A stretch of 64,000 nucleotides of DNA from Candidatus Thiosymbion ectosymbiont of Catanema sp. Cochon2018 (GCA_011392765.1 WYCW01000003.1:44465-108464); one strand, 5' to 3'. Shown: positions 44,599 to 61,673, counted from the first letter of the stretch. Numbers and translations: made by a program. Notes: a model not told the origin generated them from the sequence alone.

Positions 44599-45060
44599 CT
44601 ACTCCGAGCTGTGCAATAGCTGACCCTGCTCATCCTCCACCGAAACCTTGATGGGAATGCCCTTGCGGATGCTGGCGCTCACGATGCAGAAGTCCTCGAA
44701 CAGGTCCTTGCAGCGGTCGAAGCGCTTAGCACCGGCCAGCTCGTCGTTGACGATCAGTTTGACCTCCAGGCCGCCGATGCGCAGGCGGTTTTTCTCGCTT
44801 CGGACCATGATGCAGGTGGCCTCGGTCCGCAGGCTGTTGGCGGGCGGTTCCTCCTTGGCCAGGCAGTAGAGCAGACTGGCGCTCATACAGTTGGCGGCGG
44901 CCGCGGCGAGCAAGCGGGATGCATTGGGACCGGCCGTCTCGCCCAGCGGCGGTGGCTCGTCCATCAGGAGATCCGCCGCCTTTTTCCAATCGAAGCGGAC
45001 ATTGATCTCATAGTTTTCCCGTTGCTCCAGGTGGATGGTGAAACGACCTTCTTCGGACAT
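44599..45060 (-). CDS. OsmC family protein
   Basis: GPNASRLLAAAAANCMSASLLYCLAKE; VSASIRKGIPIKVSVEDEQG. Confidence 0.8.
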   Translation of the reverse strand: MSEEGRFTIHLEQRENYEINVRFDWKKAADLLMDEPPPLGETAGPNASRLLAAAAANCMSASLLYCLAKEEPPANSLRTEATCIMVRSEKNRLRIGGLEVKLIVNDELAGAKRFDRCKDLFEDFCIVSASIRKGIPIKVSVEDEQGQLLHSSE

Positions 45061-45157
45061 GGGGCTTCCTCTCGTGGTTGAACCTTGCGGGTTGCTCGGG
45101 TTCTATCGATTTTCACAAAAAGCCTTGGCTACGCCAGCTATCGTATACAATGGCCTT

Positions 45158-45427
45158 GTGAAGATTAAATTCGACAAGAATAAGGATGCCAAGAACATTG
45201 CCAAACATGGTGTCTCCTTGGCGCTTGCCGAGTCATTGGAATGGGATCTTCCTCTGGCGACTGAAGATACCCGCGAAGACTACGGAGAAACCCGGCCGGT
45301 TGGTTTCGCCCCCAGCGGCAGAACGGTCTACTGCGTGGTCTTCACTGAAAACGATAGCTTGTACCGAATCATCAGCCTGCGCAAGGCGTTACCGCGAGAG
45401 GTGAGGGCCTATGCAAGTCGAATCTAA
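45158..45427 (+). CDS. brnT: BrnT-family toxin
   Basis: KIKFDKNKDAKNIAKHGVSLALAESLEWDLPLATEDTREDYGETR...RIISLRKALPREVRAYA; GTG start. Confidence 0.85.
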   Translation: MKIKFDKNKDAKNIAKHGVSLALAESLEWDLPLATEDTREDYGETRPVGFAPSGRTVYCVVFTENDSLYRIISLRKALPREVRAYASRI

Positions 45428-45692
45428 GCAGGGGCGAGTCTTCGATCTGCCGTCCACCCAAGAAGAGGCCGAGATCCGCGCCGGGATTGCCGACGATCCG
45501 GCCACCTACGAGTTGTCGGATGAGACGCTCGAGACGCTCCGACCTGTTGGTCGTCCAAAGGCGGCCGTAACCAAACAGCCGGTGTCCATTCGACTGTCGC
45601 CGGAGGTAGTGGAGTATTTCAAATCTACCGGCAAGGGCTGGCAAACACGCATGGACGCAGTGCTCATGGCGCATGTCAATTCGCAGCGGTAG
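45411..45692 (+). CDS. brnA: BrnA-family antitoxin
   Basis: Overlaps brnT; VTKQPVSIRLSPEVVEYFKSTGKGWQTRMDAVL. Confidence 0.8.
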   Translation: MQVESKQGRVFDLPSTQEEAEIRAGIADDPATYELSDETLETLRPVGRPKAAVTKQPVSIRLSPEVVEYFKSTGKGWQTRMDAVLMAHVNSQR

Positions 45693-45842
45693 CTTGAATG
45701 TTGGGCACGCCGCCGTCCCTGGCGGCTTTGCCCAACCTACACTGTCGGAGCAAGTTCTTGATCGAAAAGAAATTTATACGCGCTCGCCCTGCGTAGAGCG
45801 GGAAAGCGTAGCGCATCCCGCCTTTAGACTTGTGCTCCGGAT

Positions 45843-46679
45843 TCAGATCGCGCGTTTGGCTTGCCGGTTCTTTGCTTGCTCAATCAGGTTGTGCGTGGCC
45901 TGATAAGAACGCTCACAAAAGGTGCGAAAGACGGCGTCCGATGCGCGGGTCGGCCAGACACCAGTCGCGGTTGTGAGTTGACCGGTCTCCTGTTCATAGC
46001 TCGCCAGGGTGTCGATGTATTCTTTGCGATCCCGGCTATCGATCACCAACGGCAGATGACCGGAGCTCAGTAGCGGGATGTTACTCAACAGTCTCGCCAG
46101 ACGTCCGTTTCCATCCCAGAAGGGGTGGACATGCACAAAGCCCAGGTGCAACTTGGCGTAGGCGCTGATCGCTGCGGTTTCGGATAGCTCCGTACCGAGC
46201 GGCCGATTCAATTCCGCCAACCACTGCGCCATCAGCGCAGGGACGTGTTCAGGGGCCGCATACTCGATATAGGTCTGTCTGCCGTCCTCGGTGACCGCAT
46301 AGGTACCATTCGGCTCGACCTTCCAGGTCCCATACGGCCTGTAGATATCCACGACGAATTCAGACTGCACGGCCCGGTGGAGATCGAACAGACGCGACTC
46401 GGTGACTTCCTCTTCCAACCCCGCATAGATCAGGTCGATGGCGCGCGCATGCCCCATGACCTCTTGGTGGTCCTTCACGGGCTTGCCGGCTACGGTGAGT
46501 CCCTCCTCGATGACGAATTTAGTCTCGCCCAGAGTAAGGGTATTGCCCTCCAACGCCGTAGAGGTGTGGGTCCAGAGATCGCGGATCTGATTCAGCAGGG
46601 ATTGCCGGATATCCCGGTCGAGGCCATGCAGGGCATGGAACTTAGCCGTGTTCACTAGGATCCCTTGACGGACCTGCAT
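45843..46679 (-). CDS. Fic family protein (AMPylase-type)
   Basis: Fic core HPFWDGNGRLARLL; N-terminal inhibitory-type motif STALEGN. Confidence 0.9.
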   Translation of the reverse strand: MQVRQGILVNTAKFHALHGLDRDIRQSLLNQIRDLWTHTSTALEGNTLTLGETKFVIEEGLTVAGKPVKDHQEVMGHARAIDLIYAGLEEEVTESRLFDLHRAVQSEFVVDIYRPYGTWKVEPNGTYAVTEDGRQTYIEYAAPEHVPALMAQWLAELNRPLGTELSETAAISAYAKLHLGFVHVHPFWDGNGRLARLLSNIPLLSSGHLPLVIDSRDRKEYIDTLASYEQETGQLTTATGVWPTRASDAVFRTFCERSYQATHNLIEQAKNRQAKRAI

Positions 46680-47275: not shown

Positions 47276-47810
47276 TCACATGGTTTCGTTCACGAGCACG
47301 CTGTCCCCTCCCGATCTCCTGGAGCCGGTGGGCCACGGTAGGTCACACCCACTCCGTGTGGTTCGACACGGCTGCGGTTCGCACCGTGTCTGCGTCGGGC
47401 GTCGTTCTGGGCGAGCACGAGCCATGCCGCGACCACCTTCTATCCGTGCCGGCCCGTAGCCGGTCACCTCATCATGCATGCGCCCCTTGGCGCCGGTGAC
47501 ACCCGCTGTGAGCACGCCCCATCTACGAACTCGGTTCGGTTCTCGACCCGGTTGGGCAACGGGCGTGTTCAACCGCAGAAGGCGCCGGCACCAACCCGGC
47601 CAGACTTGCCAGTTGCCGGCGGTTGGCCAACTCCCGCCAACCAAACAGCTCCATCACCAGCGTCCCGGCACCGACCCAGCCCACCCCGGTCAGCAGCATC
47701 AGCGTGCGCATCGCCTGGGTGCGGTCAGCACTCTCGATCAGCGCCCTCATCTCCTACTTGATGACCCGCAGCTGCGCTGGCACCCCTTGCAAACGTTCCC
47801 ACTCCCGGAG
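47276..47810 (-). pseudogene. IS110-family transposase remnant
   Basis: MRTLMLLTGVGWVGAGTLVMELFGWRELANRRQLASLAGLVPAPS; frame upstream (LREWERLQGVPAQLRVIK) closed by in-frame TAG. Confidence 0.7.
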
Positions 47811-48890
47811 TGTCGGGTCCCGGATGATTACGCGGGCTTTTTTTAAACAGCTGGGGCTGCTGTGCGTACCATTGTTGGAGTGTCTGAAGGGGCGTTTTGT
47901 GGTGCAAGTTTTTCTGCGGGATGTGTTGATTATACAGGTAGACGAAGCGTTTGAGAGTGGTCTGGAGGGAGGCAGAGGAATCGAAGCGGTGGGTGCGCAG
48001 GACATCGGCGATGCGGCCGTTGAAGCGTTCGATCATGCCATTGGTTTGAGGGCTGCGGGGCTTGGTGAGGCGATGTTGGATGCGGTGGTCGGCACAAACC
48101 TGATCGAAGGCATGGGCGCCGGTGGGCGAGCGCTCGCCAGTGGCGCAGAAGCGGTCGGTAAATTCCTTGCCGTTGTCGGTGAGGACGGTGTTAATCGTGA
48201 AGGGAGCGTGGTCGATCAAGCGTTTGAAGAAGCCGCTCGCGGCGGTTGCTGACTTGTCCTTGAGGATCTCCACGTAGACCCAGCGGGTGGCCCGATCAAT
48301 GGCTGCAAACAGATACGTGCGTTGGTCTTCGTCCGGCATCTGAGGCAGGTACTTCACGTCCACGTGGACAAAGCCGGGGGCGTAGTCTTTGAAGCGTTTG
48401 TGTGGGGGTTTCTGTGCCCCTTCCTCCTGCGGCAGCAGGGTCTTGAGGTTGGCGACCCCATGGCGCCGCAGGCAACGGTCCAGAGCGGACCGGGAGAGCG
48501 CGGGGTGGATGAACTCGTGGGTTACCACCAGCAGGTCATCGAGCGGCAGCAGCAACGTCTTACGCAGCTCCACGACCACGAGTTCCTGGGCCGGGGTGAG
48601 GGTGGTCTGCAAGCGATGGGGCGTATGGGAACCGTCGGCAACCCCGTCACGGCCCTTCCAGCGGCGGATGGTATCCTCACTCACGCCCAGCTCATCGGCC
48701 AGTTGCGGGACGGACTGGTTGGAGGCCTGAATGTACTGGCGGGTCTTGGGGGTCGTGGTCGCATTGGCGTGCAAGTGGATGTTCATGGTGCGTTCTCCGC
48801 TATCGACAGGGCTACAAGCCGCTCCATAACCTCTCGGGCACGCAACAATGAACCAATTTTAGATCCTATGCAATCATCCGGGACCCAACA
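47811..48890 (-). mobile_element. IS481-family insertion sequence (transposase ORF 47725..48786)
   Basis: DDE integrase core (VHVDVKYLPQ; LTDNGKEF; PQTNGMIERFNGRI); ends TGTCGGGTCCCGGATGATTAC / TGTTGGGTCCCGGATGATTGC. Confidence 0.8.
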
Positions 48891-50359: not shown

Positions 50360-51898
50360 TCAATCCTGGGTCATGAGGGCGATGTGGGCGTCCCGGATCT
50401 CCACGTCCCTACCCCCGATGGGGACCAGAGTCAAATGCAGGTTATGCCCCATGTCGATGAATTGCTTGGCCTGATGGGTAATGTCCAGGATCACATTGTC
50501 CATATCCGTGGTGAAGCGCTTGCTCACTGTGCCCAAATAGGTGGGAATATCCTCGGCCGTGGCTTCCTTGGCATCCGGCTCGTCCAGATAGAGCTTGAAA
50601 TCCAGCCGTCCACGCCGGCCATCACTGGTCTTGATGCCCAGCAGGCGCAGGAAGGCCCTGATCAATCGCTTCTCCTTGTAGGGAGCATTGCCCTGAAGGT
50701 GACCCTGGAATACATCCCCATCCTGTTCCAGAGTAAGGGGACCGTCCTCGTCCCGAAGTACCACGGGCCAACCGTTGTCGGTGTCCGCCTCCGCGGGCCG
50801 GAAATGGACGTTGTAGATGCTGGCCCGCTGCTCGCCGCGCAGGTCGAGCTGCATCATATCCGCTACGTCACGAGCACTTTTGAGCCCCTTGCCCAAGACC
50901 GTGCCCATCTTGGTCAGGGCGGCCTCCGGGGTCATATCCAGACCGCCGATGACTCCGGCGGTGAGCAGCCCGGCACTGACCTCGTACAGGCCCTGCTCCA
51001 CCTCCCCCTGCATACACTGGGTGACATTGACCATGAGCAACCCTTTCTCCCGCACCCCGTATTCGATGGCGTCGAGGAACTCCTTGGTGGTCGGCGCGTT
51101 GCCGGTGCCGAAGGTCTTGAGGACGATACCCTTGAGATCGGGTGTATCGAAGAGGGTACGCAGGACCTCCGGCTTCATACCGGGAAAGATGTCCAGGGAC
51201 ATGATGTCCATATCCAGTTCCATGGCGACATTGAGCCTGGTCGGTTTCTCGGGGGGGCGGCGGACGACGGCACTGTTGACCTCGATGTGCTCACCGGCCT
51301 GGCCGAGGTGCAACAGGTTGGGGGAACTGAAACCCTCGTAGCCGCTGGCGCTCACCTTACGCAACCGGCAACCCCGGAAGAGCTGGTTGTGGAACAGGAC
51401 GCTCACCTCCGGGACTATCGGGTGGCCCAGGGTGCGGGCAACGGCGAACTCGATGGCGGTGACCACATTCTGCACTGCGTCCGATCGCGTCTCACCGATG
51501 GGGAGCTGGGAACCGGTGACGATCACCGGCTTGGCCAGGTCCTCCAGCATGAAGGCCAGGCAGGAGCTGGTATAGGCCATGGTGTCCGTGCCATGCAGGA
51601 TGACAAAGCCCTCATAGTCATCATAGTGCTCCTTGATCAGGCGGGCCATCTCCTGCCAGTCCTTGGCCTCGATATTGGACGAGTCGATGGGTTCATCGAG
51701 AGAGATGGCCTCGACCCGGACCAGCTTGCCCTTCAAGGCGATCTTCTTGTCCCTCGGCAGATAGCCGGGCAGGGATTCCAGGATCTGGTCCATGCTGCCC
51801 GGCACCAGGGGACTCAGGGGGTCCTTCGGGTCCTCATGGACCGAGCCGATGGTGCCCCCCGTGTAGATGATCAATACCCCATCTGCATACGCAGACAT
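50360..51898 (-). CDS. Asparaginase-family protein with about 150-aa C-terminal extension
   Basis: LIIYTGGTIGSVHED; VILHGTDTMAYTSS; KPVIVTGSQLPIGETRSDA; GIVLKTFGTGNAP. Confidence 0.9.
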   Translation of the reverse strand: MSAYADGVLIIYTGGTIGSVHEDPKDPLSPLVPGSMDQILESLPGYLPRDKKIALKGKLVRVEAISLDEPIDSSNIEAKDWQEMARLIKEHYDDYEGFVILHGTDTMAYTSSCLAFMLEDLAKPVIVTGSQLPIGETRSDAVQNVVTAIEFAVARTLGHPIVPEVSVLFHNQLFRGCRLRKVSASGYEGFSSPNLLHLGQAGEHIEVNSAVVRRPPEKPTRLNVAMELDMDIMSLDIFPGMKPEVLRTLFDTPDLKGIVLKTFGTGNAPTTKEFLDAIEYGVREKGLLMVNVTQCMQGEVEQGLYEVSAGLLTAGVIGGLDMTPEAALTKMGTVLGKGLKSARDVADMMQLDLRGEQRASIYNVHFRPAEADTDNGWPVVLRDEDGPLTLEQDGDVFQGHLQGNAPYKEKRLIRAFLRLLGIKTSDGRRGRLDFKLYLDEPDAKEATAEDIPTYLGTVSKRFTTDMDNVILDITHQAKQFIDMGHNLHLTLVPIGGRDVEIRDAHIALMTQD

Positions 51899-52761
51899 TA
51901 GGTAACCTCTCCGACAGAGCTGATCTTGAATCTACAACCCAGGTTGGGTTTTCCAGGAGTGTGTAGGTCACATGCGATGTGGCTGACGTTAATCTCCCGA
52001 TTATGGCGGTTGGTAATTCGGTTCAAGACACCCTCGACGTAACCTCCCATGAAATCGCAGAGGCTTTCGTCTTCTACGGACCGATCTTCCGTCAGAAACG
52101 AGTGGAGGAGGTGGATCTCTCCTGAAAAATCGATTCCATCCACTAATACCTTATTCGAAAATACACCGAACCCTGCATTCTTATCGTATTCGCACCAAAT
52201 ATCGAGTTGTCGATCCAACTCCAGGTCTGTTGTTGGGTACTCCGCTTTAAGGTATCGCCGAAACGACATCCCGAAGGCCCAATCCACATGATAGCCGACA
52301 TCTTTAAGAAACTCGGGTGATTTTTCTTTTATCATGGAAAACACGGACTGCATCGTATCGCTGCTCATGAGAAGGCAGCGCTTATCTTCGTACTTCAAAT
52401 GTCCGGTCGCGTCGTTGAATTCAGAGACCATGAAAGAGTGTTTTCCTATTGTCATGAATCCACGAGCAATGTTTTCTCGTGAGGCATCGAGGTCGGCCTT
52501 CAGCTCCTCGATTTGCTGCCGGATGAGCTTATTTTCCCGGTACATGCCTGCAACCCATGTCGCCAATAGCAGGGTGATGATCGAAATAACGTTGAATAAG
52601 GAAAAATACCCCAGCGTTTGGATGCCCCACAAATGAGGGAACAGTTTTACATAGCTTGCGGCAATCCCGAAGAACGCGTTCATCAGGAATAAGAATGCAG
52701 ACCAAATTTTAAAACTCATCTTGAAGCTGGACTCAACATTCCGCCCTATCTTATCCATCAT
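51898..52761 (-). CDS. Two-TM protein with V4R-like C-terminal domain
   Basis: N-terminal TM pair and coiled coil, then IWCEYDKNAGFGVF...LCDFMGGYVEGVLNRITNRHNREINVSHIACDL...GCRFKI; TAATG overlap with downstream asparaginase. Confidence 0.6.
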   Translation of the reverse strand: MMDKIGRNVESSFKMSFKIWSAFLFLMNAFFGIAASYVKLFPHLWGIQTLGYFSLFNVISIITLLLATWVAGMYRENKLIRQQIEELKADLDASRENIARGFMTIGKHSFMVSEFNDATGHLKYEDKRCLLMSSDTMQSVFSMIKEKSPEFLKDVGYHVDWAFGMSFRRYLKAEYPTTDLELDRQLDIWCEYDKNAGFGVFSNKVLVDGIDFSGEIHLLHSFLTEDRSVEDESLCDFMGGYVEGVLNRITNRHNREINVSHIACDLHTPGKPNLGCRFKISSVGEVT

Positions 52762-52898
52762 ATATTGACCTCGCTTGAATCACTCATATCATTCAATATA
52801 AATTAGTGTGATTCAAATCAACAACTGTGGACTGAAAGTAAAGAGACTGAAAGTTAGCATAGGGTCCGTTGCGCGGACCTTCTAAATGTCAACACGCC

Positions 52899-53114
52899 CT
52901 AGTACCTCGTTTCGCTTGATATTGCAGAAATACTCTATTCACCACAGAGACACAGAGGGCACAGAGAATACACCGAGGAATGTTTCTTCAGACCTGACGA
53001 GCATGGAGAAAGCACGAAGGAAATTCTCTGATTTCTCCGTGCTCTCTGTGCCTTTGTGGTGAATAAAAAATTTTCCCCGTGTCTTCCGCAATATCAAACG
53101 AAATGAGGTACTAG
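52899..53114. repeat. MITE-like element with 27-bp TIRs
   Basis: CTAGTACCTCGTTTCGCTTGATATTGC ... GCAATATCAAACGAAATGAGGTACTAG. Confidence 0.85.
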
Positions 53115-53145
53115 TCCAGGAGTACCCTCAGCCATTCCGCGGGTG

Positions 53146-54240
53146 TCAATTTCCCCTTGGCGCTTCGGTGGGTGTCATCTCCTCGACGTAGAGCCTGCCC
53201 ATTTTCTCTCTGACACGTGTCAGCTTGTCCGCGGGCGACAGGCGGCCTTGGTCAATGGCCGTCTGCACCTGGTGCAGGACCCAGCGGAACTTGGCGGTGG
53301 CCGCCGCGTTGGTCATATTGCCGGTGGGGATGGCCCCAGCCTCCAGGGCCTCCTGGCCGGGGGCATAGTGGGAGGCGAGGGTGGAGTTGGCAGGGAACTG
53401 GCTGGTGATGATCACCGGCTTGTCGAGATTTACGGCTTCCTGGATGAAGCCCTTGAAGGAATAAATCCCCCCGTTGGGCACATTGCCGGCACCGAAGGAT
53501 TGGAGGACCACGCCTTTGCAGAGCTCGCTATGCAGCACCGGACGCAAGGCATCGGGCTCCAGGCCGGGAATCAGTGAGAACTGGACCACCCCGTCCGAGA
53601 ACTCGGGCCGAAAGTCCAGTGGCTCCGGTTGACTGGGGCGCGTCCGTATCTGTCCGGCCGCCAGCAGTATCTCCTCGGTGATAAAGCCGATGGGAAACTC
53701 CGCCGGGGACTCGAAGGCATCGAAGCACCGCTCGTCCTTCTTCTGCACCCGACAGCCGCGAAAGACGTATTCGCCGAAGGCGACCACCACCTCCGCCAGG
53801 TCCTCGCAGGCGACCCTGATCGCCCGCAGCAGATTGACCCGGGCATCCCCATGGGCAATCTCGGGGGTGGTCTGGGCACCGGTAAAGACAACAGGCAGAT
53901 GCAACCGATCGCCGAGGGCAAAGGCCAGGGCGGACGATGAAAAATGCATGGTGTCCGTGCCGTGGGCGATGACAAAGCCTTGGTATCCCCGGTCCAAACG
54001 CTCATAGATGGCCTGGGCCATTTTTGTCCAATCCGCGGGCACCATATTGGTGCTGTCCTTGTTCAGCAGATCCACGAAATCCAGCTCGGCGGTCTCCTGG
54101 ATCTCGTCCTCCGCCTTGAGATAACGCAGAAACTCGCTCGGATCTTCCGGGGGGCGCAGGACATATTCCTGGCCCTTGCGCTCCCGGATCATGCCGATAG
54201 TGCCCCCGGTGTAGATGAGGCAGATTTTGGGTTTGCTCAT
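53146..54240 (-). CDS. Asparaginase-family protein
   Basis: ICLIYTGGTIGMIRERKGQ; FVIAHGTDTMHFSSSALAF; LPVVFTGAQTTP; GVVLQSFGAGNVPN; start at ATG 54240. Confidence 0.9.
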   Translation of the reverse strand: MSKPKICLIYTGGTIGMIRERKGQEYVLRPPEDPSEFLRYLKAEDEIQETAELDFVDLLNKDSTNMVPADWTKMAQAIYERLDRGYQGFVIAHGTDTMHFSSSALAFALGDRLHLPVVFTGAQTTPEIAHGDARVNLLRAIRVACEDLAEVVVAFGEYVFRGCRVQKKDERCFDAFESPAEFPIGFITEEILLAAGQIRTRPSQPEPLDFRPEFSDGVVQFSLIPGLEPDALRPVLHSELCKGVVLQSFGAGNVPNGGIYSFKGFIQEAVNLDKPVIITSQFPANSTLASHYAPGQEALEAGAIPTGNMTNAAATAKFRWVLHQVQTAIDQGRLSPADKLTRVREKMGRLYVEEMTPTEAPRGN

Positions 54241-55847
54241 GATCGACTCAGATGATCGGTACAATACGAATAATAGGTTGCCCTTGCGTCCGAAACCAGG
54301 CGTTTCGCCTGCGAAGTACGCACGGATTCCGGCAGGTCATCCCCTTCCATTTCATTGACCTGGATTCTCCCTGCAGGTCCGTCGCCGAATTATAGATTCC
54401 ACTCAGGACCCCCTCTACATAACCTATGAAGAAACCCTTGAGATCTCTGCGTTGGTCGGACGGAAATCCGTCCTTGGCAAAGGGGTCGCCTACGACCCTC
54501 AAATAACCACGCGGCGAGCCGGATTGAACTGGTACTGCATGAATCGTACCGAATCCGGCGCCCGAGTCGAATTCAGCCCACGAATGGACTCGCGAGATAA
54601 CATCCTGTAGCTCGGACGCGGTATCGAAGATTTCATTCAGCTCGTCCGCAAAATCCTCACCACCTCGCCTTCCTGCATCCCTGAGTGCCTCGTACTGGCT
54701 ATCGGAGTCCCTAGCAATACGTTGCAGCAGCGCGTCGAGCATGAGATGGAAGGTTTCGACACGCATGGCGATATTCGGGCGGTCATCATCCACATTCCGC
54801 ATGGCTCCGAGATGAATATGGCGTTCAAACCGCTTGGTCAGGATGCGGACCTGGGGATCCATACCCCGTTTCTCATACCACCATTTTTCACTTTCCCCTA
54901 GGTCGGATACCGCCAGCGGTGGAGCCAAACGCGCACAAAGCGCGAGGTAATCGTGGCTGAGCTTCAGACTGGAGTCGCGATTATGGCTATTTACGTACAA
55001 AATACGCTCCTTCAATTCGATCTCTTCCGTTTCGGAAAGTATCACGAAATTATCCGGCCTGAACATCGATTCGGCAAGGGCCTGATTATCCAGGTCATTT
55101 GAGAAATCCGCCCAACGTTCAGCAACATCCTGTCGCGTTTTTTCTGCCTCTTTCTGTGTCATATGATCGGGGGCACGTGTGATCACCGGAACAAAGGAGC
55201 TCTTTCCCTTCCATTTCATGGATGATGAGCGCAGCAACGCCTGTGCTGTAGAGAGTGCGTGATAAATGCCTTCCTCATTCGGTGGAAAAAATGCGCAATA
55301 GTATCGGCCCAGTCAAGCAATAGGAATGCGCTGGATCCAGTGCTCGTCTTGCAGTCCACCAACAAAAAATCCGGCGTGAATTGTGTCTCGATCAGTTTTT
55401 GGTCTTCCCGGAAGGCTCGGATATTCAGGTCCAGCCACTCCATCGAGAAGGTGCCGGGGTTGAGTCCGATGATCTCGGATCTTGCCTGATAGAACAGCCG
55501 GTGGAACTGATAGGATGAGATGAACTCCCAATAGGCCCCCGGGTCTCGTCCCCGGCCCGCAGCAGGTAGAGGTTTTTGCCGACCCGTTTGATGTTCCGGC
55601 CCAGCTCATGCCAGCGGTCCGCCGCGGATTTCCCGCCTGCGCGATCTTCGATGCTGAAGTGTTCCAGATACTCCAGATATCCGCAGCCGGATGGCTTGTT
55701 CCATTTATGGTGGAGTCCCGGCGCTAGATAATCGAAATCGAGCATCAATACCTTTCGGCCAGTCTCGGCCAGGGCCTTTGCCACATTGCACAGGGCCAGG
55801 GTACGCCCCACGCCGCCCTTGACCGAATGGAATACCAGTGTCTTCAT
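54237..55847 (-). pseudogene. KGGVGR-motif ParA-like ATPase fused to V4R-like domain, three apparent frameshifts
   Basis: MKTLVFHSVKGGVGRTLALCNVAKALAETGRKVLMLDFDYLAPGLHHKW...; continues in other frames (YWEFISSYQFHRLFYQARSEI...; PPNEEGIYHALSTAQALLRS...; AGRIQVNEMEGDDLPESVRTSQAKRLVSDARATYYSYC), aligned to intact paralogue 59009-60655. Confidence 0.8.
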
Positions 55848-56026
55848 GGGTGTCTGGCCGGTTGCAGGCGAATCGTCTTGTGCTCGTAAGAGGCATCCTC
55901 CCGCTGACCCTTACGCTCTTGCTTATGACCCATAGCCGCAGCCCTTTCGACGGCCCAGATGAGGACAGCAAATAGAGGGACGATGAATAGCGTGGAAATC
56001 GCAGCGCTGATCAGGAATTCTTTCAT
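55844..56026 (-). CDS. 60-aa single-TM protein
   Basis: MKEFLISAAISTLFIVPLFAVLIWAVERAAAMGHKQERK...; ATGA overlaps with both neighbours. Confidence 0.65.
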   Translation of the reverse strand: MKEFLISAAISTLFIVPLFAVLIWAVERAAAMGHKQERKGQREDASYEHKTIRLQPARHP

Positions 56027-56292
56027 GTCGATATCCTCACGAATTCGTTATGGGTGGATTCACCGATTTTTTCTTGCTGTTTGGAGAGGTAGCCTCGTAT
56101 CCAGACAGCAAAGATCGATGCGCCAAGTGCAAGGGGATAACCAAAACCGAAGAGATGGTTTTTCTGCACGGCTGAAAGGAAATCACCCACATCCAGCGCG
56201 TAGGGGAGCGCATAGAGAAGCGCCGCTATCAGACCAGACAGCAGGCAGATCGCGCTGACAAGGCGACAGTTTGCCATTATGCTCCTTTTCAC
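56023..56292 (-). CDS. Small multi-TM protein, equivalent to the C-terminal half of the 282-aa protein at 60825-61673
   Basis: LVSAICLLSGLIAALLYALPYALDVG versus HAVSALCLLIGLFAALLYALPYIADM. Confidence 0.7.
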   Translation of the reverse strand: MKRSIMANCRLVSAICLLSGLIAALLYALPYALDVGDFLSAVQKNHLFGFGYPLALGASIFAVWIRGYLSKQQEKIGESTHNEFVRIST

Positions 56293-56313
56293 CGGGCTGT
56301 CAGCGCAGATTTC

Positions 56314-56760
56314 CTACCTGAAATCCTCGATCTCGGTTTGCAACAGGATAAAAATCGTCGCCACTACAACCATGAGGCTATAATAAGTAGGAAAAAAGTA
56401 CACGGTGAAACTATTCTGTGATTCCCCCGTTTCTTTAGCGAAAAAGATAGCGGCGAATATGGGGGGAAGTAATATAAAGGCTATCGGTAAGATATAATTT
56501 AAAATTGTCCAGTGGGCAACCGTAATCCATTTCCTAACCCAGAGAATCGAAATTCCGAATAAAAAAGATGACAAGGTCAGTCCCAAGATAGCTAACGATC
56601 TTACCCGTAATCCCCATCCCATGAGCCATGATGTGACTGTAAATGCCACCGCAGCCAGAAAGAAAATTCCGATAGAAAGCGGCAGCCACTTATAGAATGG
56701 TCTCTTTCCATGCATATGCGGGTACTCGGACATCCTTTGTTTCTCCTCAAAGTCTGACAC
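56314..56760 (-). CDS. Multi-TM protein, equivalent to the N-terminal half of the 282-aa protein at 60825-61673
   Basis: YFFPTYYSLMVVVATIFILLQTEIEDF versus YVFYPTYYSLLVVVSTIFFNLQTEVEEW. Confidence 0.7.
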   Translation of the reverse strand: MSDFEEKQRMSEYPHMHGKRPFYKWLPLSIGIFFLAAVAFTVTSWLMGWGLRVRSLAILGLTLSSFLFGISILWVRKWITVAHWTILNYILPIAFILLPPIFAAIFFAKETGESQNSFTVYFFPTYYSLMVVVATIFILLQTEIEDFR

Positions 56761-57029
56761 TCAAAACAAAGCCGTGTTGTGTCCGCTTGTAAACCGACAA
56801 TGTAAGCGCGACCTCAGGCTCCTTTTCAGGGATCTTGCTGCCAAAGACCTGCCCCCATACCGGCCGACAGTCCGGCTCCGCCCCAACAGGACAACCTCCC
56901 AAGTCGTTGGGTTCCGAAACGGCGGGATGTATCTCACCCCATGGCTGATACCGCAGGCTTGGGCCGGAAAGGATAATCCCGCGGGCTAATCTCTGTCACC
57001 TCGAATGGGGTTTTCCCTTTGGCAAGCAA

Positions 57030-57644
57030 CTAGCTGACTACGCCCGTCAGGTACCCAACGAGAAACTGTCGAATGCTCGCATTCACCGGATTGTCGCTAG
57101 TCGCGAGAAAGCCATTCTCGATAATGACCTGGCCGCGGAGCGTCTTCGAATCGACCTGGGCCTTGATATTGCCGAAGCCCGCGGCCGAGTCGAACTCGCA
57201 CCACCCGTCGAGTCTGGCCTGGAGGTCTTCCGGCGGACCCGCGGACCAGATCGAGTCCGTTTCCATCATCTCGCGCCCGAAGCTTTCGCCCGCGGCGAAC
57301 CCGCAGCGCCATAAGCCTTGTGCCGCTGTCCGGGAATGCTCCGGGGAATCGCCGGACGCCGCAGCAACCAAGTCGGCATGGATCTGTTCCAACATCCGCT
57401 GCAGACTCTCGGTGCGCAGGGCGATATTCCGTTGGCGATCGACGTTGATCAAGTCGCTTCCATGCCGGCGAAAGCGTCTCTCGGTCTCCCGGATGTCTTC
57501 CGGCATACCGAGCAGTGATTTCCAGGACCGTCCGGCAAGAGTGTACCGGACGCCTGGGTCATCGCCGAGAATGACCTCGAACAGGGCCAGATAGTCATGG
57601 GCCAGCGGTACGTCCAAATCGCCCTGGTCCCCTTCTACCGCCAA
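57030..57644 (-). CDS. Stand-alone V4R-like domain protein (start uncertain)
   Basis: LAHDYLALFEVILGDD...NIALRTESLQRML...WCEFDSAAGFGNI...FLVGYLTGVVS; homologous to C-terminal half of the ATPase fusion. Confidence 0.6.
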   Translation of the reverse strand: MAVEGDQGDLDVPLAHDYLALFEVILGDDPGVRYTLAGRSWKSLLGMPEDIRETERRFRRHGSDLINVDRQRNIALRTESLQRMLEQIHADLVAAASGDSPEHSRTAAQGLWRCGFAAGESFGREMMETDSIWSAGPPEDLQARLDGWCEFDSAAGFGNIKAQVDSKTLRGQVIIENGFLATSDNPVNASIRQFLVGYLTGVVS

Positions 57645-58453
57645 AACCAGGCGCTCCTGATACCTGAGCTTTCGTTGCTACCGCCGTTTCGCTGCAATGC
57701 GGCTGCAATCGCTCCTGCGGCATCCGGGTTTTTTGTCAATCCCACCAGCCTTTGAGTGAGCCGAGGCGTGGCCGGTACGCGCCGCATCAAGGCGGCGATT
57801 TCCATCGTCGCCCTCCGGCCCGTGGCGGAGTCCGACCAGTCGAGGACCGAGAGCAGACTCAGGGCGGCGGCAGGATCCGTAGTGGCCAAGCCACGGAAAC
57901 AGGGTGCGAAATACGCGGGTGGGTTCGGCTCCATGAGCTGCCGCCAATGAGTCTCACCCAATCGGCAATTCGCGTCGTCCCGCCCTTGGAGCACGGACAG
58001 AGCAGCCAAGGCCTGGAAGTAAGGATCCCGTGTGCGCTTGGTAGCGGATAGCCCGACTCTATTGGGTGCCAACCGCCGGGCGATTGCCAACACATCGGAG
58101 GCACAGTGTCCTACCCCGAGGTCTCGGATCAGAAAGAAGAGTCCGCTCAGGGCCTCTCCAGTCCAATCCTTTCCTGTGGCCGAGTGGTGTAGTGCGGCGC
58201 AAATGCCGAGTTTGGCGGTTTTCCGGGCAATGCCCAGCTGCGGGATCAGGTCGAGGAAGAGGTATTCCGGGCCATCGCCCTGCCGGGGATCGGGCCTGGG
58301 AAACGGGTCGCGCCGGTGCAATCGATCATGGACCCATGCCGCCCAACGCGGTGTGGTGAGCCGCTGTAGGCTGTCCAGGTCGAAACGACCGTCCACGTAT
58401 CCAATGTGGTCGGCATAGTCTTCCCCCTCTTCTGCTCTTTTGTTCACTACCAT
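57635..58453 (-). CDS. Unknown protein (272 aa), helical-repeat-like
   Basis: ATG at 58453 overlaps the end of the upstream gene; co-directional in cluster. Confidence 0.6.
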   Translation of the reverse strand: MVVNKRAEEGEDYADHIGYVDGRFDLDSLQRLTTPRWAAWVHDRLHRRDPFPRPDPRQGDGPEYLFLDLIPQLGIARKTAKLGICAALHHSATGKDWTGEALSGLFFLIRDLGVGHCASDVLAIARRLAPNRVGLSATKRTRDPYFQALAALSVLQGRDDANCRLGETHWRQLMEPNPPAYFAPCFRGLATTDPAAALSLLSVLDWSDSATGRRATMEIAALMRRVPATPRLTQRLVGLTKNPDAAGAIAAALQRNGGSNESSGIRSAWFWR

Positions 58454-59012
58454 AGGTGCCATACCTCGAATAGATCGCCGATCCGGATCGATTCGTGGAT
58501 CGCCTCCAGGTGCTGTCGGTATCCCGGCCCCAGGTTGCCCACATGTGGAAGGCACCCAACCGATCCTCGTGCCGGATGAGGGTCCAGCTCCAACCGGTGG
58601 GTGGTTCGGGCAAGTTCAGGGTTGAAATCAGTTCTTGGATGGCCTCGGGGGGCCAGTAGCACTCCTTATCCAGGTGCCGAGTGAGACTTTGTGGACGAAC
58701 GGCGCGCCAGAGCATCCTGTTCCGAGGGATGTGCCCACATTCGCTGCCCTGCAAGAGGTAATTCAGGCAGGCCGCGTCGTAGGCGGCCTTCAGACTCGGC
58801 CAATCGGCGGGTGTATTCGGATATTCGGCAATGGTTCTCAAAAGTTCGGCACGAGCGGAAAGGCCAAGTCTAATGTCGGCACACAGGTTATCGATAATCT
58901 TTTTCACGCTGCCGTGGGACCGGCGCCATTGCTCCAGCACCCGTCCGACGCGGTTGGCTTCAGCCGCCGTGAAGCGACCGTGGTCGGCCAGGATCTCGTT
59001 ACACGGTATCAT
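58447..59012 (-). CDS. Unknown protein with a probable frameshift near 58535
   Basis: ATGA overlap with the ATPase stop; after the shift the frame continues PGYRQHLEAIHESIRIGDLFEVWHLW* and ends overlapping the next ATG. Confidence 0.5.
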
Positions 59013-60655
59013 CGGGGGTGGTCCGCTGCCACTCGGGCAGGATGGTCAACAGGCGTTCCTGTGTTGGCCGCCGAGACGCGATAATAATTGATCGCGTCCG
59101 ACCGTATGCTGCTACGAAGCTCCGGGGGCAACTTGTCCTCCGCGATGGTCCGGACCTTCAACTCATGATAATCACCCGCGGCCACTGCCTTAAAAATGTC
59201 TCCGATGACGCCTTCCAGATAGCCTTCGAAGAAGCTGCGCAGGTCGTGGCCCTGATCGTCGGGAAACCAGTCCGGGTGCAATCCGAAGGCGTCGCCGATG
59301 ACCCGCAACCACATTTCCCCGGAGGTTTCGTCGATCTCCAGGGGATGGATCACGCCGATACCGACCCCCGAGTCGAACTCGGCCCAACGCTTGATCCGCT
59401 TGGAAAACGACACCTCGACCCCTTCCTGCCTGAAAATGTCGTTGAGCTCAGCGGCAAAGTCCCGACCACAGCGCTGGCCGACTTTGACCAGAGTGGTCCG
59501 TTGGGCGTCCGGCCCGCCGGATTGACAAGCATCCAGAAGCCCTTCGAGCAACAGGTGGAAGGTTTTGACCCGCATGGCGATGTGGGGCTGCTCGTCGACG
59601 TTGAGCAGGGTCCCCAGATGGAGGTAGCGGTCGAATTGCTTGGCCAGGATGCGTTCCCCCCGGTCCATGCCGAGCTGCTCGTACCACCAAGTCTCCGCGG
59701 CGGCCGGGTCCTGCGTGTACCCTTCGGGCGGCACCAACCGGGCGCACAGGCCGAGATAGTCGTGGCTCAGTTGCCAGAAGATGTCTTTCTTATCCCGCAT
59801 CTCGAACAGGATGCGTTCCTGGCCTTCGAGCTCCCTGGTCTCGGAGAGGATGACGAAATCCCGTTCCCGAAACAGCCCGGCGGCATAGCCCTGCTCTCCG
59901 TCGGACCAGTGCCTGCGGCGCCAGGTATCCCCGATCGTCCGGATACAGTCCGCATCCCCGGTCTCGCTGCGATGATCCGGCACACGGGCGATAACAGGCA
60001 CGAAGCCGATGGGGCACCGTTGGCGCGCCATCTCCCGCACGACGGCTTGCGCGGTGCCGCAGGCGTAGTAGATACCTTCGGGATTCGCCGGCAGAAAATG
60101 GGCGATGGAATCCGCCCAGGAAAGCAAGATGACCGCGCTCGGCTCGGTCGTGGTCTTGCAGTCCACGAGCAGATAGTCCGGTGCGAAGCGCTCCGCGATC
60201 AGTTGCTTGTCCATGTCGAAGGCCTCCCGGTTGCGATCCAGCCATTCCAGTGGAAAGACTTTGGGACTGAGGCCATTGATCTCCTTGGGGGCGAAGTAGA
60301 AGAGACGCTGAAAACGGTAGGAGGCGATCAGGCGCCAATAATCGGGGCTGGTCTCGTCCCCCGCCCGCAGTAGGTAGAGGTGTTCGTCGATGGGCTCGAT
60401 CCGGTCCTGGAGCAGGCCCCAACGTTTGCGCGCCGAGACGCCGCCGGCGCGGGCCTCGACGTCGAAGGCGTCCAGATACTCCAGGTAGCCGGGCCCGGGC
60501 GGCCGCTGCCACTTGTAGTGGAGTCCCGGCGCGGTGAAATCGAAATCCAGCATCAGGACCCGCTTGCCGGCCACTGCCAGGGCCCGGGCCAGATTGCACA
60601 GGGCCAGACTGCGCCCGACGCCGCCCTTGACGGAGTGAAAGACCAGTGTCTTCAC
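59009..60655 (-). CDS. KGGVGR-motif ParA-like ATPase fused to V4R-like C-terminal domain (548 aa, intact)
   Basis: VFHSVKGGVGRSLALCNLARALAVAGKRVLMLDFDFTAPGLHYKW; YLLVDCKTTTEPSAVILLSWADSI; RWAEFDSGVGIGVI...FFEGYLEGVIGDI; GTG start. Confidence 0.85.
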   Translation of the reverse strand: MKTLVFHSVKGGVGRSLALCNLARALAVAGKRVLMLDFDFTAPGLHYKWQRPPGPGYLEYLDAFDVEARAGGVSARKRWGLLQDRIEPIDEHLYLLRAGDETSPDYWRLIASYRFQRLFYFAPKEINGLSPKVFPLEWLDRNREAFDMDKQLIAERFAPDYLLVDCKTTTEPSAVILLSWADSIAHFLPANPEGIYYACGTAQAVVREMARQRCPIGFVPVIARVPDHRSETGDADCIRTIGDTWRRRHWSDGEQGYAAGLFRERDFVILSETRELEGQERILFEMRDKKDIFWQLSHDYLGLCARLVPPEGYTQDPAAAETWWYEQLGMDRGERILAKQFDRYLHLGTLLNVDEQPHIAMRVKTFHLLLEGLLDACQSGGPDAQRTTLVKVGQRCGRDFAAELNDIFRQEGVEVSFSKRIKRWAEFDSGVGIGVIHPLEIDETSGEMWLRVIGDAFGLHPDWFPDDQGHDLRSFFEGYLEGVIGDIFKAVAAGDYHELKVRTIAEDKLPPELRSSIRSDAINYYRVSAANTGTPVDHPARVAADHPR

Positions 60656-60835
60656 TCAAATACGATCGGTAGGCAGGAACCAAGTGTCTTTCCGGCCCGG
60701 AAGGTCGGTCGGGTCCGGCGGCCGTGCCGGTCGTGGCGGCCGCGGCGAAAAGGGCGTGCTCCAGGCCAGGGCCCCCAAGAGAGGCAGTCCGAGGATCAGG
60801 CTCACGCTGATCCCCACGATAAGGTCAATAGGCAT
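60656..60835 (-). CDS. 59-aa single-TM protein (not in ORF track)
   Basis: MPIDLIVGISVSLILGLPLLGALAWSTPFSPRPPRPARPPDPTDLPGRKDTWFLPTDRI*; same position as the 60-aa TM protein of the other module. Confidence 0.6.
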   Translation of the reverse strand: MPIDLIVGISVSLILGLPLLGALAWSTPFSPRPPRPARPPDPTDLPGRKDTWFLPTDRI

Positions 60836-61673
60836 AGATGGTCTCTTTCGTCGGCTTGGTCTTCGCCATCACTTTGGTCTGGGCCTCTTCCAGCTTCATG
60901 CGGATCAGGATGGCGATCAAGGGCAGAAACAGGGCAGACGCCAGGGCGATGTAAAACAGGGCGGCGCGTTGGCTCGGGTCCTTGATGCCTTCCTGCATGT
61001 CCGCGATATAGGGTAAGGCGTAGAGCAGTGCGGCAAACAGACCGATGAGCAGGCAGAGGGCGCTGACGGCGTGCCAGCGGTTTGCTTCCCGGTCGCCTTT
61101 CTCGAGGGTCTTCATCCATTCTTCGACCTCCGTCTGCAGGTTGAAGAAGATGGTACTCACTACGACGAGCAGACTGTAATAGGTGGGGTAGAACACGTAC
61201 GAAACAAGAATGGTACTGCGGTTACCAGCGTCCCGCGTCGGGTCCGTCTCCGAGTCCGCTGTCGGCCCCCCGACCTCCCGCGCGTCCGCCCCGCTCGTTA
61301 TCTCCTGGCAGGGGCCGGCCTGCTCAGGGAGGGTGACATTGAGCAGCAATCCGCCGGCAACCGGGGGCAACAACACGAAGATCAGGGGGAATTGGTGATT
61401 GAGCAGGGTCCAGTGGATGCTCGCATAGCGACGCCTTGCCCATAGCAGCCAGAGCCCCATGATGGTGACAAAGAAGGTGATGGTGAGGATCCAGGCGATG
61501 ATTGCCTTGTTGTAATATCCGGTTGCCCACAGCCAGTAACTGACTCCACCCAAGAAGAGGGCCGAGGAAACGGCTATCAGCAGCAGCGGGCCGCCCATCC
61601 GCCCGCCGGCGGATAAATCGTCACTCGCTTTCTCCCCGGAACGCGGGGTTTGAACTCTTCTCGTGCGCGTCAT
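60825..61673 (-). CDS. Multi-TM protein (282 aa) of the ATPase/V4R-like cluster
   Basis: Several hydrophobic segments; homologous to 56314-56760 plus 56023-56292. Confidence 0.75.
   Translation of the reverse strand: MTRTRRVQTPRSGEKASDDLSAGGRMGGPLLLIAVSSALFLGGVSYWLWATGYYNKAIIAWILTITFFVTIMGLWLLWARRRYASIHWTLLNHQFPLIFVLLPPVAGGLLLNVTLPEQAGPCQEITSGADAREVGGPTADSETDPTRDAGNRSTILVSYVFYPTYYSLLVVVSTIFFNLQTEVEEWMKTLEKGDREANRWHAVSALCLLIGLFAALLYALPYIADMQEGIKDPSQRAALFYIALASALFLPLIAILIRMKLEEAQTKVMAKTKPTKETIYAY

Follow-up and report, generated by a model that had tools for sequence, protein, structure and literature searches.

A divergent V4R-fold domain paired with asparaginase-family genes in a marine worm symbiont and in Clostridia: a possible sensing or immune-like system

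V4R domains are known chiefly from transcription factors, where they sense aromatic compounds, and from their kinship with Bet3, a eukaryotic tethering protein. V4R and Bet3 have in common an alpha/beta plait in which helices 2 and 5 each carry a pair of glycines three residues apart (the GxxxG doublets; Podar et al., PMC2253512), and the zinc site of DmpR is made of three cysteines and one glutamate (C151, E172, C177 and C185; PMC7264223). Here, we describe a repeated domain that almost certainly is a divergent member of this V4R/TRAPP-Bet3 fold. It occurs four times in a stretch of 64,000 nucleotides (the window; GCA_011392765.1, WYCW01000003.1:44465-108464) located within contig C10 of the 5.0 Mb genome of the Candidatus (Ca.) Thiosymbion ectosymbiont of Catanema sp. 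Cochon2018, a symbiont of marine worms. In the window, the domain is joined to a KGGVGR-type P-loop ATPase or to transmembrane (TM) helices, in Clostridia to a TIR domain, and in both groups a gene of the asparaginase family recurrently follows it. The genes concerned, with the four copies of the domain named A to D, are the following:

60825-61673, minus strand: multi-pass membrane protein of 282 amino acids (aa) with five predicted TM helices, first gene of the A operon; conserved in Ca. Thiosymbion oneisti (ratio of nonsynonymous to synonymous substitution rates, dN/dS, of 0.35 against it)
60656-60835, minus strand: small open reading frame (ORF) of 59 aa, lying after the TM gene and ahead of the ATPase-V4R gene, with one hydrophobic stretch seen in the sequence and a hydropathy score under the cut-off used; kept in Ca. 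T. oneisti and in operon B
59009-60655, minus strand: copy A, intact; KGGVGR-type P-loop ATPase (residues 1-192 matched; AAA_KGGVGR, E = 6e-24) and predicted V4R-fold domain (about residues 340-530); dN/dS of 0.22 against Ca. T. oneisti
57635-59012, minus strand: gene overlapping the stop of A (ATGA) and split by a frameshift over two frames (ORF reading), with no family match in Pfam, NCBIfam or PADLOC
57030-57677, minus strand: copy C, what is left of the 3' part of an ATPase-V4R gene, its domain tail containing a TAG (BLAST and hidden Markov model, HMM)
56314-56760, minus strand: counterpart in operon B of the multi-pass membrane protein, interrupted and frameshifted, the second half of which continues to about 56040 (ORF reading)
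55844-56026, minus strand: small one-TM ORF of operon B (from the sequence)
54248-55847, minus strand: copy B, frameshifted KGGVGR ATPase and predicted V4R-fold domain (about 54976-54377 in frame; BLAST and HMM)
53146-54240, minus strand: type I asparaginase of operon B; its ATG and the stop of B, read in B's last frame, overlap (ATGA); PF00710 at 6e-51, catalytic T, TD and K present; dN/dS of 0.26 against Ca. T. oneisti
51898-52761, minus strand: copy D, TM helices at residues 23-41 and 53-71, a linker and a predicted V4R-fold domain (residues 96-287), with candidate zinc ligands C235, H261, C264 and C276 (sequence and structure model)
50360-51898, minus strand: type I asparaginase of pair D, 512 aa, whose start overlaps the stop of D by one base (TAATG); PF00710 at 5e-53, TIGR00519 above cut-off, catalytic residues present

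The sequence-only reading of the window that preceded this work had proposed that one domain occurs there four times with different partners. All four segments that it quoted are present (A 60655-59009, B 55237-54248, C 57644-57030 and D 52761-51898), and profile comparison, which it had singled out as the place where the idea could fail, gave significant similarity in every direction, so that the claim stands. Indeed, leave-one-out HMMs retrieved each omitted copy (E at Z = 1e6 of 2e-37 for A, 9e-41 for B, 1e-19 for C and, as the weakest, 1e-6 for D), and an HMM built from the clostridial relatives alone (see below), hence independent of the window, matched the six-frame translation of the window at C (3e-16), B (2e-14), D (6e-12) and A (5e-8), and in no other frame. 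Within the set, pairwise BLAST yielded 2e-59 for A-B, 1e-18 for B-C, 2e-10 for C-D, 5e-6 for B-D and 1e-3 for A-D. The single-sequence likeness of A and D is weak (phmmer E of 15 at Z = 1e6, barely over shuffled decoys), and the set is therefore joined through profiles and copy C. As for the partners, A is the intact fusion to an ATPase that had been announced and B is a fusion as well, but with a frameshifted ATPase part; D does consist of two TM helices and the domain. Copy C, described as standing alone, contains the domain but is a remnant of an ATPase-domain gene: it retains the ATPase-side linker (...QERLVLAVEGDQGDLDVPLAHDYLALFE) and similarity runs on past the TAG inside its domain, which rules out an independent single-domain protein. 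That reading had mentioned neither the coupling to asparaginases nor the fusions to TIR, nor that two copies are decayed.

Its suggestion of a V4R-like domain is borne out by the predicted fold, the glycine doublets and a profile match to a bona fide V4R protein. The AlphaFold2 model of D (15 sequences; predicted local distance difference test, pLDDT, of 74 and predicted template modelling score, pTM, of 0.71) and the model of A both display an alpha/beta plait with a four-stranded sheet, and both reach V4R-fold chains with a Foldseek probability of 1.00. All matches of the D model in the PDB at E<=1e-3 (36/36) are DmpR, PoxR or MopR sensor chains or TRAPP/Bet3 chains, and the top matches of the V4R part of A are the PoxR and MopR sensors; only this part of the full-length A model (pTM of 0.45, ATPase part mostly at pLDDT <50) was interpreted. 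The second and fourth of the motifs aligned beforehand contain the two V4R/Bet3 glycine doublets: the first, G-x3-G, is found in A, B, C and Clostridia, with its second glycine replaced by Asp in D, and the second, GY[LV]xG, in every window copy. At the sequence level, the domain profile matches the V4R protein at E = 2.4e-4 (that protein itself reaching Pfam V4R at 1.8e-14), the clostridial relatives give sub-threshold and correctly ordered XylR_N and V4R Pfam matches (V4R at 11.8-15.7 bits versus a gathering threshold of 31), and the best PDB sequence match is the archaeal V4R protein MJ1460 (E = 0.06). Pfam V4R (PF02830) itself matched no window copy even at E = 1, for which reason the domain is filed as a divergent superfamily member rather than under Pfam V4R.

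Compared with the V4R/XylR_N sensors of DmpR, PoxR and MopR, the domain thus has the same predicted fold, a helix-helix-helix-hairpin-helix-hairpin order, a glycine doublet and, in D and in Clostridia, a cysteine-bearing tail. Among the four window copies, this tail is limited to the one at 51898, as had been remarked, and it recurs in the clostridial relatives with four cysteines at places comparable to the candidate ligands of D, according to an alignment reading rather than a solved site; A and B lack a zinc-type tail. In contrast to those sensors, the domain has its own motif, W[AC]E[FY]D-x3-G-x-G, and is fused to KGGVGR ATPase, TM or TIR parts, whereas Pfam and NCBIfam profiles detected neither the sigma-54 AAA+ GAFTGA domain nor the C-terminal helix-turn-helix of XylR/DmpR-type activators in window proteins. 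With TRAPP Bet3 and MJ1460 it has the fold and the glycine doublets in common (PMC2253512), but here it is bacterial, fused to signalling parts and linked to asparaginases.

Copy A and its orthologue in Ca. T. oneisti, in which the domain is a close relative of that of A (79% identical), carry the KGGVGR motif and match AAA_KGGVGR (NF047398) at around 6e-24, with 85.3 and 85.6 bits, respectively, versus a curated cut-off of 90; a V4R fusion like that of copy A is in none of the records found. The order of unit A (membrane protein, 59-aa ORF, ATPase-V4R) is unchanged in Ca. T. oneisti, and unit B has the same order, with its ATPase and membrane genes interrupted, followed by the type I asparaginase. 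Other KGGVGR-type matches in the genome of the window lie in frames of 1734, 506 and 1062 aa, and Ca. T. oneisti encodes a further KGGVGR ATPase of 965 aa (L052:1661-4558) together with partner genes that have no assigned identity.

A recurrent feature is the asparaginase. In the genome of the window, a type I asparaginase lies directly after B, D and a fifth copy found on another contig (C1:1003115-1003555), and these three are its only asparaginases; such enzymes are uncommon in the family, a similar one having been found in just 3/55 genomes searched, its own included. The window enzymes match TIGR00519 and Pfam asparaginase domains and keep the catalytic residues of the type I asparaginase/GatD family (T16, T104-D105 and K181 in the numbering of the D enzyme), from which the D enzyme differs by a C-terminal extension of about 150 aa past the canonical core (window 50360-50830), without family match. 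Outside Thiosymbion, a motif-pattern scan of 84,980 species genomes, in which W[AC]E[FY]D was required so that relatives without the motif were missed, returned nine clostridial genomes, mostly from herbivore gut samples, all with a TIR domain joined to the predicted V4R-fold domain. An asparaginase-family gene comes next after eight of these nine TIR-V4R genes, at -1 to +50 base pairs (bp), the loci being mutually related so that they do not count as eight independent events, and three pairs have an overlapping TGATG/TAATG junction. In all eight partner enzymes, the column of the catalytic lysine holds A, S, Q, G or T, and by their sequence they are asparaginase-like. Their wider clade (L054-L075) keeps the nucleophilic threonine and HGTD and lacks the catalytic lysine, four members lying directly after gatB (L072-L075). 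At one locus, the TIR-V4R/asparaginase pair is directly followed by another TIR gene, whose product has Sel1 repeats (L026:9920-12007).

On the asparaginase tree, the window enzymes group with AnsA of a relative and the clostridial ones form a separate clade (100/100), which rules out a single transferred cassette. Either the pairing would have arisen separately in two phyla, or one partner would have been swapped while the pair persisted. The same pairing with different enzyme clades in two phyla speaks for a working link, and we consider it likely that the V4R domain is functionally coupled with the asparaginase. Linked and unlinked clostridial enzymes are interspersed on the tree, so that the V4R gene has been both acquired and lost. 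Few genomes carry the family: a search of 399 from the phylum of the window (own genome excluded) gave one borderline match, and in 391 from the clostridial class the matches were the query genome and a single ordinary V4R protein; no homologues were found on viral contigs, nor on plasmids for D, the plasmid matches of the clostridial protein being TIR-only.

Taken together, these elements probably compose a modular sensor/output system operating with an asparaginase-fold amidohydrolase. The V4R/TRAPP-Bet3-fold domain would be its ligand-binding, sensing and dimerising half, and the amidohydrolase, translated from the next gene, its recurrent second member. The output part would differ from case to case: a P-loop ATPase of KGGVGR type accompanied by membrane proteins, an anchor of two TM helices or, in Clostridia, a TIR domain. 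A ligand bound in the pocket of the V4R dimer may switch the fused output and/or the co-made asparaginase, through physical or signalling coupling. This ligand could be small and non-polar, by analogy with DmpR, PoxR and MopR, or could instead be something that the amidohydrolase uses or produces. Several observations weigh against this scheme. The gene after copy A is not an asparaginase, the B-type asparaginase of Ca. T. oneisti has no V4R gene alongside, one clostridial TIR-V4R gene (L030) has no adjoining asparaginase, and the other eight clostridial pairs are related by descent. The reciprocal linkage, i.e. an asparaginase subfamily always found with V4R, is false: 345 genomes yielded 23 full-length clostridial asparaginase homologues, of which one is V4R-linked, in the genome of the query itself, and such a V4R domain is absent from the remaining 22 genomes.

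Partners such as TIR and KGGVGR are typically seen in signalling and defence. Together with the decay and recombination of copies and the patchy distribution, they tip the balance slightly from housekeeping nitrogen metabolism towards a stress- or immune-like response, and the BrnT/BrnA toxin-antitoxin pair and Fic protein (PADLOC PDC-S04/SoFic; window 45035-46679) that lie nearby lean the same way; an immune-like role is nonetheless only a possibility. No known defence system accounts for the loci, as PADLOC yields just the KGGVGR P-loop of PDC-M28B, the sole match of copy A, and, for the clostridial TIR domains, weak ThsB-like or SAVED-TIR matches far under the Thoeris family cut-offs. The clostridial relatives resemble Thoeris ThsB and other TIR defence proteins by their TIR_2 domain and differ by their partner, an asparaginase-family enzyme; no ThsA-like neighbour was seen on reading the ORFs of the clostridial loci, all neighbours not having been searched with profiles.

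The strongest competitor is metabolic control, in which the V4R domain would be a dedicated regulator of the asparaginase, serving asparagine and nitrogen supply or tRNA-dependent amidation, with TIR, ATPase and TM parts that merely place or oligomerise it and no immune role. The conserved window enzymes, in which all tested catalytic residues are kept, are in line with it, and the gatB neighbourhood of the clostridial relatives leans towards amide metabolism: besides the four genes that directly follow gatB, the TIR-V4R gene of L026 lies between gatB and the asparaginase, and the top NCBIfam matches of the L025 enzyme are GatD profiles. However, bacterial TIR domains are mostly NAD-degrading or signalling effectors, the missing lysine makes simple asparagine hydrolysis doubtful in Clostridia, and most such clostridial enzymes manage without V4R. 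On balance, we regard this explanation as unlikely, though it deserves to be kept in mind.

Much less probable is hitch-hiking, i.e. a decaying array of duplicated mobile genes in which V4R and asparaginase genes are adjacent by duplication history and have no joint function. In its favour, copies B and C are broken, the ATPase part of B running through frames 1, 0 and 2 in turn with a shifted domain tail as well, and the fifth copy (L004:10110-12272) is a 5'-truncated chimera that changes over at the GYVEGV motif: its first 325 bases are 85% like B, and the next 1876 are 95% like D and its asparaginase, the locus including a second 512-aa asparaginase 98% identical to that of pair D. An insertion sequence-type transposase (47725-48786) lies near the BrnTA and Fic genes. 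Against such an origin, a second phylum shows the same gene order and the tight or overlapping junctions although its asparaginases are of a different clade, and the intact genes are under purifying selection (dN/dS of 0.20-0.35, the lowest value being that between the D-type asparaginases of the window and of the fifth-copy locus). Between genes (window 52899-53114 and others) lie palindromes and short dispersed repeats of about 60-240 bp, several of them common to the locus on contig C1. Finally, an unrelated alpha/beta domain with look-alike motifs, as the missing Pfam V4R matches of the window copies and the sub-threshold ones of Clostridia could suggest, is hardly credible in view of the Foldseek results for two copies, the two glycine doublets and the profile match to a true V4R protein.

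To conclude, we tentatively propose that these loci represent a prokaryotic sensing or immune-like system that has not been described before. Its V4R sensors, bearing TIR, KGGVGR ATPase or membrane parts, would act with an amidohydrolase of asparaginase fold, which Gammaproteobacteria and Clostridia would have drawn independently from different asparaginase clades. The domain, ATPase, TIR and asparaginase are each of known kinds; neither their combination nor the coupled gene pair turned up in the open-access literature searched, which leaves out most subscription papers and returned nothing for V4R with asparaginase, V4R with TIR domain, KGGVGR, or asparaginase with TIR domain and operon, and in which asparaginase together with defence came up in isolated passing mentions. 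Fusion to TIR domains and KGGVGR ATPases and coupling to asparaginases are a new setting for the V4R fold. Besides, the gene pair offers a small testable system in which to ask which ligand is bound and how the TIR or ATPase output relates to asparagine, and the lysine-less asparaginase-like enzymes are candidates for a new activity.

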